From a virus: 23,318 bases of DNA. Positions 9,585-11,853 of the stretch are shown in pieces. The stretch lies in the IMG/VR virus record IMGVR_UViG_3300021197_000915, positions 1 to 23,318 of that record; one strand, 5' to 3'. The notes beneath the pieces are model-generated. The model did no database searches. It worked only from the letters and a program-made list of their open reading frames with translations, and was not told the DNA's origin. The position numbers were made by a program, and so were the translations under genes. Numbering within the stretch: position 1 is the first letter of the stretch; every line of letters begins with the position of its first letter.

Positions 9585-9707
9585 ATGAGATCAATTAACG
9601 TCTGGATCTTAAAAGATGATGGTTCCACATGTTGGCATACCATTCCCTGGGGAAAAAAGCATCTTGATGCTATACGACAATTAGGTAAGATTATATTTTC
9701 CTCCTGA
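9585..9707 (+). CDS. hypothetical protein, 40 residues
   Basis: The ORF of 40 residues starts immediately after the T8 tract of the hli terminator and begins MRSINVWILKDDGSTCWHTI. It is basic and Trp-rich with no membrane segment. There is no Shine-Dalgarno because the terminator occupies that space. Translation would need readthrough or a transcript starting within the hairpin. It is kept at moderate confidence because the same terminator-ATG arrangement precedes a clearly real gene at 1628. Confidence 0.45.
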   Translation: MRSINVWILKDDGSTCWHTIPWGKKHLDAIRQLGKIIFSS

Positions 9708-9728
9708 AAACTATACGAAATTAAAACT

Positions 9729-10034
9729 ATGACCAACGATAAGGAACTGTCGGATCTCAAACTTGAGAGAAAAGAATGTCCTAAATGTGGTGCTACATGG
9801 ATTAATGGCAAGCATGTCTTTAGAGGCACTGCCGCATCATACGACAAGAGTGAACTAGACCTTGCTGGTCTTGTTTGTAATAAATTAGGTGACGAGCAAT
9901 GCATCAACCCATCAAAAGGAAAGGATGGTGGACAGACATGGGAGTACCGTTCTGGATACATTGATGGTGTCTATGCTTCAAAGAAAAAATCAATGGAAGA
10001 CTTGCGCGATCAATTTGACGACCTAGACTTTTAA
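9729..10034 (+). CDS. Cys4 (zinc-ribbon-like) protein of unknown function
   Basis: The 101-residue protein contains CPKCG at C17-C20 and a second cysteine pair at C50 and C58, spaced as a possible zinc knuckle or ribbon. Between them is WINGKHVFRGTAASY, and after them a Gly/Lys-rich stretch and YRSGYIDGVYASKKK. The acidic C-terminus ends DQFDDLDF. Zinc binding is inferred from cysteine spacing only. It lies directly upstream of the psbA promoter and could be a small regulator or RNA/DNA-binding protein, but nothing in the sequence proves that. No convincing promoter of its own is visible. Confidence 0.7.
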   Translation: MTNDKELSDLKLERKECPKCGATWINGKHVFRGTAASYDKSELDLAGLVCNKLGDEQCINPSKGKDGGQTWEYRSGYIDGVYASKKKSMEDLRDQFDDLDF

Positions 10035-10063
10035 AAATAAGCATATTTACTCACGGAAAAGGG

Positions 10064-10097
10064 TTGACAGATCTAGGATTTGCTGGTATTATAAATA
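10064..10097 (+). promoter_or_regulatory. composite psbA promoter: sigma70-type overlapping a T4-type late box
   Basis: TTGACA (10064-10069), a 17 bp spacer, then TATTAT (10087-10092) with an extended -10 TGG. The late box TATAAATA (10090-10097) overlaps the -10 by three bases. Two polymerase forms could therefore initiate psbA within a few bases of each other (near 10099-10103), giving expression throughout infection. Confidence 0.82.
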
Positions 10098-10098
10098 A

Positions 10099-10260
10099 GT
10101 CGGAAGGTTAAGGAACGAACACATTCCTTAACAAGACTTAACACCCCTTAAACCGAGACCTATAGGGTGTATAAACAACGTCTCTAATACCTCTGCTAAG
10201 GGTGCAGAGGAAATAGTAACTCCACCATTACCCTGATGGTCTTACTTTTTTTCAATTAAA
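10099..10260 (+). ncRNA. structured psbA 5' leader, candidate cis-regulatory RNA (PhotoRC-like)
   Basis: The predicted leader is about 160 nt, against 15-25 nt for most other promoters here. Three hairpins are visible. One has a 9-bp perfect stem, GTTAAGGAA (10107-10115) with TTCCTTAAC (10124-10132). One has a 6-bp stem, ACACCC (10141-10146) with GGGTGT (10165-10170). One has a 7-bp perfect stem, CCTCTGC (10190-10196) with GCAGAGG (10204-10210) around a TAAGGGT loop. A pyrimidine-rich stretch then runs to the ATG at 10261, without a clear Shine-Dalgarno. RNA motifs called PhotoRC have been described upstream of psbA in cyanobacteria and cyanophages; whether this matches needs a covariance-model search. 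Confidence 0.6.
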
Positions 10261-11337
10261 ATGGCTACACTTTCAAGGCAACAATCAACCTCTTCGTGGG
10301 ATTCTTTCTGCGAGTGGGTCACCTCCACCAACAACCGTTTGTATGTTGGTTGGTTCGGCGTACTGATGATCCCCACACTGTTGGCGGCAACCATCTGTTT
10401 CATCGTCGCTTTCGTCGCTGCTCCTCCTGTGGACATTGACGGTATCCGCGAACCAGTTGCTGGTTCACTCATGTATGGTAACAACATCATCTCTGGTGCA
10501 GTTGTTCCTTCTTCTAACGCAATCGGTCTACACTTCTACCCCATTTGGGAAGCAGCATCTTTGGATGAGTGGCTCTACAATGGTGGTCCTTTCCAATTGG
10601 TAATCTTCCACTTCCTCATCGGCATCTTTGCTTACATGGGACGTGAGTGGGAACTTTCGTACCGTCTAGGTATGCGTCCATGGATCTGTGTCGCCTACTC
10701 GGCACCAGTCGCTGCTGCGAGTGCAGTATTCCTCGTCTATCCTTTCGGTCAAGGTTCTTTCTCCGATGCTATGCCTCTTGGTATCTCTGGTACTTTTAAC
10801 TACATGCTTGTATTCCAGGCAGAACACAATATCCTTATGCACCCGTTCCACATGCTCGGTGTTGCTGGGGTATTCGGTGGATCTTTGTTCTCTGCTATGC
10901 ATGGAAGTCTTGTTACTTCTTCACTCGTCCGTGAGACGACTGAAACTGAGTCACAAAACTATGGTTATAAGTTCGGTCAAGAAGAAGAGACGTACAACAT
11001 CGTTGCTGCACACGGTTACTTCGGTCGCCTGATCTTCCAATACGCTTCATTCAACAACTCACGTTCATTGCACTTCTTCCTTGCTGCATGGCCTGTTGTT
11101 GGTATCTGGTTCACCGCACTTGGTGTCTCCACGATGGCGTTCAACCTGAACGGTTTCAACTTCAACCAGTCCATCCTTGATGGTCAGGGTCGTGTGCTCA
11201 ACACCTGGGCAGACGTTCTTAACCGTGCCGGTCTTGGTATGGAAGTAATGCATGAGCGCAATGCTCACAACTTCCCACTGGATCTTGCTGCTGCTGAGTC
11301 AACTCCTGTTGCACTTACCGCACCTACCGTAGGCTAA
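10261..11337 (+). CDS. psbA: photosystem II D1 protein
   Basis: This is a complete 358-residue D1 with five transmembrane helices, numbered one lower than the standard. Key residues are present: tyrosine Z at Y160, the P680 ligand H197, iron ligands H214 and H271, QB-pocket S263, Mn4Ca ligands D169, E188, H331, E332 and D341, and the C-terminal processing site after A343 with a 15-residue tail. Position 130 (here 129) is Glu, as in high-light D1 isoforms. D1 is the fastest-turning-over PSII subunit; phage copies are known to replenish it during infection. The gene has its own promoters, a long structured leader and a strong terminator, so it is a monocistronic unit. No intron or frameshift is visible. 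Confidence 0.99.
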
Positions 11338-11357
11338 TATGCCTGATGGTAGTCTTC

Positions 11358-11389
11358 ACCCCATCACATTACATGTGGTGGGGTTTTTT
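11358..11389 (+). terminator. strong intrinsic terminator after psbA
   Basis: An 11-bp stem with one G-U pair (ACCCCATCACA 11358-11368 with TGTGGTGGGGT 11374-11384) and a five-base loop is followed by TTTTTT. It lies 20 bp after the psbA stop and insulates psbA from the downstream genes. Confidence 0.88.
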
Positions 11390-11469
11390 ATAGGTATTCT
11401 TACCATTGTCGTTCCATTACTTTGTGTGCTACTATTATGATTGGTAATCTTGAACCAGAAGAAAACGTT

Positions 11470-11853
11470 ATGTCTAACTTGACGCAGGATGAATTGTGGG
11501 AAACCATTGCAACCCTTGGTTGGGATGTTAGAAATGACAACATTGTTATTGAGATTGGCGGTACACAAGTTTCTGGTATTGAACAACCTGAAGGTTACAA
11601 TAAGAAGTGGGCATCTCCCTTGGGTCATCGTAAGTATAATAAGGACGCATTCATTGTTCTTAAAAATCTTTCTCGTAATGATGACACTAAGTCCCAACCG
11701 ATGGACCGGGAACATAAACCCCATCATCTAAATGAACCTGTTGAACCGCAAGATATTACTGTCAATATGGATGGTGGTGTAGGTGGTTCTTGGACAGTAG
11801 AAGAACTTAAAAAGCATGATGATGAATTAGGTTACGATACTTCAGGAAAATGA
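11470..11853 (+). CDS. hypothetical protein between psbA and psbD, about 127 residues
   Basis: The frame is open upstream. I prefer ATG 11470 (MSNLTQDELWETIATLGWDV) because a weak promoter-like TACTAT lies at 11430-11435 and AGAAG precedes this ATG; ATG 11437 is the alternative and adds 11 residues. The N-terminal half is a helix followed by beta strands (IVIEIGGTQVSGIE). The C-terminal half is acidic and Gly-rich with GGVGGSWTVEELKKHDDELG. No catalytic motif or membrane segment is visible. It overlaps the next gene by ATGA at 11850-11853. It sits between psbA and psbD, but I cannot name a photosynthetic function. Confidence 0.65.
   Translation: MSNLTQDELWETIATLGWDVRNDNIVIEIGGTQVSGIEQPEGYNKKWASPLGHRKYNKDAFIVLKNLSRNDDTKSQPMDREHKPHHLNEPVEPQDITVNMDGGVGGSWTVEELKKHDDELGYDTSGK

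Follow-up and report, generated by a model that had tools for sequence, protein, structure and literature searches.

PhotoRC-II in the psbA leader of a T4-like cyanophage: a predicted H-type pseudoknot core that probably controls translation initiation and messenger lifetime

Promoters and gene context of psbA

Studies have shown that an unusually long intergenic sequence precedes psbA in cyanomyoviruses, and that sigma-70 and gp55 motifs lie upstream of the gene (Puxty et al. 2018, PMC5931967). In phage S-PM2, psbA is the sole gene with a light-responsive share of its expression (PMC5931967). Two RNA families are described upstream of psbA: PhotoRC-I (RF01716), a 44-position element of host cyanobacteria, and PhotoRC-II (RF01717), whose Rfam covariance model, as printed by cmscan, contains two hairpins only (H1 and H2). 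PhotoRC-II was among the families with extra covariation in the survey of Rivas 2020 (PMC7657543), and R-scape pseudoknots are displayed on the Rfam site (PMC7779021); because of that reported covariation, a pseudoknot of PhotoRC-II may already be noted in databases. In the literature searched, we found no paper on the function or the minimal form of PhotoRC-II. The gene 32 leaders of T4, T2 and RB69 likewise carry an H-type pseudoknot, which precedes the start codon by tens of nucleotides in these T4-like phages, but the gene, the sequence and the downstream structure differ from those of the psbA leader.

The window analyzed in this study is the whole stretch of 23,318 nucleotides from the record of a marine cyanobacterial virus, and all features described below lie on its plus strand. 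The early sigma-70-like promoter TTGACA-17-TATTAT occupies 10064..10092 (TTGACA 10064-10069, TATTAT 10087-10092), and the T4-type late promoter box TATAAATA occupies 10090..10097. The sequence-only reading of this DNA had claimed a three-base overlap between the two, and the coordinates (10087-10092 vs 10090-10097) confirm it. The early pattern was found in the window with 2 exact sites and 3 with one mismatch, compared with 0.43 expected, and none of 100 shuffles reached 3. By itself, TATAAATA does not stand out from chance in the window (3 found vs 1.9 expected); its support comes instead from the 128 of 141 related psbA leaders in which both TTGAC and a TAAATA-type box are kept. From the early and late elements together, we infer a transcript start at approximately 10100-10103 and a leader of approximately 160 nt. 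The proposed length contrast also held, as the remaining sigma-70-like sites of the window lie approximately 15-30 nt before their genes. The two overlapping promoters would supply one leader both early and late.

This putative dual early/late promoter agrees with the published motif analysis, in which the same -35/-10 elements overlap a gp55-type late box (PMC5931967). An early-plus-late promoter on cyanomyovirus psbA is already published, and nothing about it is new here. However, S-PM2 of Puxty et al. 2018 has no PhotoRC-II, unlike the phage of the window, and the light response of S-PM2 therefore cannot be credited to this RNA.

The psbA gene (D1) lies at 10261..11337, without a Shine-Dalgarno sequence before its start codon. 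A strong intrinsic terminator at 11358..11384 directly follows the gene, so that psbA forms a separate transcription unit before psbD. Matches to NsiR1 and anti-hemB at 11304-11392 were below the cut-off and represent this terminator. A Shine-Dalgarno match before psbA was found in 0 of 147 leaders, whereas psbD in the window has one. Many cyanobacterial and phage genes have leaders without this sequence anyway, so its absence alone says little. An intrinsic terminator within the leader was rejected, because no terminator-like site was found there on the psbA strand. A short upstream reading frame, MVLLFFN (10236-10259), was rejected as well: it is not kept, and it varies in length and stops among relatives.

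Structure of the PhotoRC-II leader

The suggestion that the leader belongs to a PhotoRC family proved right. In cmscan, PhotoRC-II (RF01717) matched 10129..10224 at 83.1 bits (cut-off 39, E 2.1e-13) over the full model, positions 1-96 of 96. PhotoRC-I gave no match in the window at the gathering cut-off, nor at E up to 10 in 9700-11500. The PhotoRC-II match stands on the same strand as psbA and upstream of it (10129-10224 vs 10261-11337), in a virus record, and 0 of 151 genomes of the host family matched. With the same place upstream of psbA and the same phage range, the leader is a typical member of this known family. The lack of an Rfam match and the lack of covariation had both been named beforehand as refuting outcomes; both were looked at, and neither occurred.

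To analyze covariation, psbA loci were gathered by protein similarity with no selection on the leader. The leaders for alignment were chosen by loose anchors (ACC, a T.AT motif and AGGG), none of which requires the tested pairing, and 71 diverse leaders were aligned with MAFFT.

In the window, GAGAC (10155-10159) in the loop of H1 can pair with GUCUC (10180-10184) approximately 20 nt downstream, forming a helix at 10155..10184 that ends 76 nt upstream of the AUG. Judged by covariation, these strands form an H-type pseudoknot. All five pairs were standard in 70 of the 71 aligned leaders; the row of the lone exception is off by one base in the alignment, and AGGA/UCCU is still there. Eight combinations occurred in the alignment, namely GAGAC/GUCUC, AAGAC/GUCUU, AGGAC/GUCCU, GAGAU/AUCUC, GAGGC/GCCUC, GGGAC/GUCCC, GGGAU/AUCCC and GGGGC/GCCCC. 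There were 28 two-sided changes, compared with 3.6 in shuffles (0/500 as many), and sliding the partner by 1-3 columns reduced pairing from 99% to 28-74%. RNAalifold chose the helix unprompted.

The pseudoknot type changed 16 times on trees, for which a psbA tree and a leader tree that left out the pseudoknot columns were used. In independent tree pairs, the second arm followed the first and never went the opposite way. On the psbA tree, this held for 8 of 8 cases at pair 2; the same tree bears most of the test, because the well-supported branches of the leader tree give only 1 to 3 pairs per position. An independent set was obtained by a search with a Prochlorococcus-phage psbA, which gave 49 leaders with an ACC-RRGRN motif in a hairpin loop. 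The exact five-letter partner was present within 32 nt in all 49, compared with a mean of 18.7 and a maximum of 29 in the swap controls.

The whole leader folds better than shuffled versions (z -4.1, 0/200 as good), and the three stems described earlier, of 9, 6 and 7 bp, are real and lie where they had been placed. H0, the 5'-most hairpin of the leader, has a 9-bp stem (GUUAAGGAA/UUCCUUAAC) and spans 10107..10132, with arms at 10107-10115 and 10124-10132; across 133 leaders, the best stems at this place were 8.0 bp compared with 5.7 bp in shuffles. H1, which is stem 1 of the pseudoknot, spans 10141..10170 with 6 bp (ACACCC 10141-10146, GGGUGU 10165-10170). Stems of 5 bp or more were found here in 65 of the 71 leaders, with 47 different arm pairs, and pairing beat every swap control. 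H2, a 7-bp hairpin at 10190..10210 (arms 10190-10196 and 10204-10210), has the loop UAAGGGU, in which AGGG is near-invariant. The unpaired ACC, one A of UAAA and the AU before H2 were invariant in all 71 leaders, and the GG of the AGGG loop is also invariant across the aligned leaders.

The covariation asked for in the leader stems is strong, and it extends to parts that the first description overlooked: the pseudoknot and a fourth hairpin at approximately 10215-10246. This hairpin, H3 (10215..10246), has two parts and lies outside the Rfam model, with an outer stem AGUAA/UUACU, an inner stem ACCAUU/GAUGGU and a loop ACCCU. Its inner stem covaries, its outer stem covaries in the clade of the window, and it ends 14 nt before the psbA start codon. 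Compared with RF01717, the structure described here adds the pairing of the H1 loop with the downstream strand and a third covarying hairpin, and it makes H2 optional. This fold is the part that goes beyond both the earlier description and the Rfam model used.

The loops of H2 and H3 are complementary through AGGG and CCC in nearly all leaders, and in the window ACCCU of H3 is complementary to AGGGU of H2. At least four Watson–Crick pairs were possible in 53 of 67 unique loop pairs compared with 22% for shuffled letters, a count that is biased because the parser partly required GGG and CCC. No covariation was found between the two loops: native loops paired no better than swapped ones, and a kissing contact as shown by covariation was rejected. 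In one leader (L539), both loops have changed together, to GAAGG in H2 and AACCUU in H3 (GAAGG pairing with ACCUU), and we regard this double change as hinting at a loop-loop contact. A kissing contact between H2 and H3 is possible on the complementarity of their loops.

Distribution and minimal forms

PhotoRC-II was found in 28 of 30 phage records searched, as a single copy in all 28, and in a second record set it was single in 14 of 15. T4-like phages that infect Synechococcus, as well as ones that infect Prochlorococcus, carry it, S-RSM4 and S-RIM2 among them. Neither S-PM2 nor the podoviruses examined have it, though these bear psbA, and it was not found in the 151 genomes of the host family; the psbA of Synechococcus WH7803 carries PhotoRC-I, not PhotoRC-II. 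A host origin was rejected, with no match in host psbA loci or host genomes save one (L448), which is in a metagenome-assembled archaeal genome and resembles a phage contig.

A pattern search of viral contigs gave 120 matches, 10 of them at a contig edge. Among the 110 motif loci with enough sequence, psbA came next in 109 (108 by motif, and L319, a psbA variant, by reading), and the sole exception was L351, with a different gene downstream. These results indicate that PhotoRC-II is phage-only, nearly always single, and adjoins psbA. The contig of L351 carries a second copy (L279) approximately 1.2 kb away, with an HNH-like endonuclease, read as such by eye, between the two. Here the old leader is stranded upstream with its H3 gone, and the second leader adjoins psbA.

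Approximately fifteen of the 49 independent leaders, and that of the isolate S-SSM6a, have H1 and the pseudoknot but neither H2 nor H3 (L519, L521, L525, L526, L529-L533, L544, L556, L559, L560, L565; S-SSM6a, L505). In most of them, 31-54 nt separate the pseudoknot from the start codon, compared with approximately 75-90 nt in other leaders, and these minimal leaders score only 18-28 bits or nothing against our own full model R1. A small extra hairpin sits inside pseudoknot loop 3 in L533, L559 and L565. Because some phages keep the pseudoknot alone, without the second hairpin of Rfam, the predicted pseudoknot is the core of PhotoRC-II and that second hairpin is a module; since both hairpins are missing from the minimal leaders, H2 and H3 are not essential everywhere.

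Other arrangements were also seen around psbA. Short leaders without PhotoRC-II carry an H0-like hairpin (such as GUUAAGGAAU...AUUCCUUAAC) in L499 (S-PM2), L089, L153, L266, L280 and L290. In two cyanopodoviruses, glutamine-II riboswitch aptamers lie directly after psbA (L503:1784-1839, L504:1922-1976).

Possible control of psbA by the leader

The covarying structure argues well for the RNA-level control of psbA that had been proposed. We believe that PhotoRC-II, with its H-type pseudoknot core, probably controls translation initiation of psbA and the lifetime of its messenger. Such control is the most economical reading because the leader has no terminator, H3 lies near a start codon without a Shine-Dalgarno sequence, and the unpaired letters of the pseudoknot are invariant. 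The RNA would act after the start of transcription, on the psbA messenger itself, and initiation at this start codon would be the likeliest point of control, with messenger lifetime following it. Sensing or binding would fall to the pseudoknot and its invariant single-stranded ACC, UAAA and AUA. As adaptor hairpins, perhaps joined through their AGGG and CCC loops, H2 and H3 would place or release structure near the start codon. Counting against a control role, several psbA-bearing cyanophages, including S-PM2, manage without PhotoRC-II.

The strongest rival is a plain 5' stabilizer, in which the structures would only protect a heavily used messenger against RNase E of the host or other nucleases, and would neither sense anything nor influence initiation. 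The structures are indeed stacked at the 5' end with H0 first, and leaders of the S-PM2 type retain H0-like hairpins only. RNase E of Synechocystis cleaves the psbA2 5' UTR in the dark, at a site beside a hairpin in AU-rich sequence (PMC10989929), and the window is also AU-rich between H3 and the start codon. We hold this explanation to be possible but doubtful, as a pure shield has no need for the invariant single-stranded ACC, UAAA, AUA and AGGG.

Next comes a protein operator by analogy with T4, in which a phage or host protein would bind the pseudoknot and repress translation of psbA, much as gp32 does at the gene 32 leader. In T4, gp32 nucleates on a pseudoknot located 67 nt before the start codon (PMC3014915). 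The carriers of PhotoRC-II are T4-like phages with a covarying H-type pseudoknot in the messenger leader, and its distance from the AUG is 76 nt here and 31-54 nt in the minimal forms. In T4, however, an unstructured AU-rich tract of UUAA repeats leads to the ribosome site, whereas H2 and H3 occupy this place in the window and intervene in most phages, and we consider such an operator rather unlikely.

A metabolite riboswitch with the pseudoknot as its aptamer seems improbable. A compact H-type pseudoknot is a form common to small known riboswitches, and the loop letters here are invariant, but the RNA is tied to one gene and occurs in phages only, in no host. PhotoRC-II was also judged to be no riboswitch by Weinberg et al. 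(PMC2864571). A two-state switch, in which GAGACC would pair alternatively with GGUCUU after H3, is very improbable: the fold of lowest energy for the window (-41.4 kcal/mol) contains this pairing, a comparison unfair to the pseudoknot because the folding program cannot form pseudoknots, but all six pairs are possible in just 20 of the 71 leaders, and the long-range fold was rejected.

Going further than control of initiation and messenger lifetime, we tentatively speculate that T4-like cyanophages invented PhotoRC-II, which their hosts lack, as a compact sensor or operator built on a pseudoknot that tunes D1 synthesis in the course of infection, with H2 and H3 as an optional adaptor to the start codon, linked loop to loop. 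If this were true, T4-like phages would have a second viral leader pseudoknot that controls translation, the first being that of gene 32. A pseudoknot with repeated compensatory changes offers a precise object for mutation, of five base pairs, and the redefined family core may aid in finding minimal forms that score weakly with the full model. The gene concerned, phage psbA, supports photosynthesis while the most abundant phototrophs of the ocean are infected.
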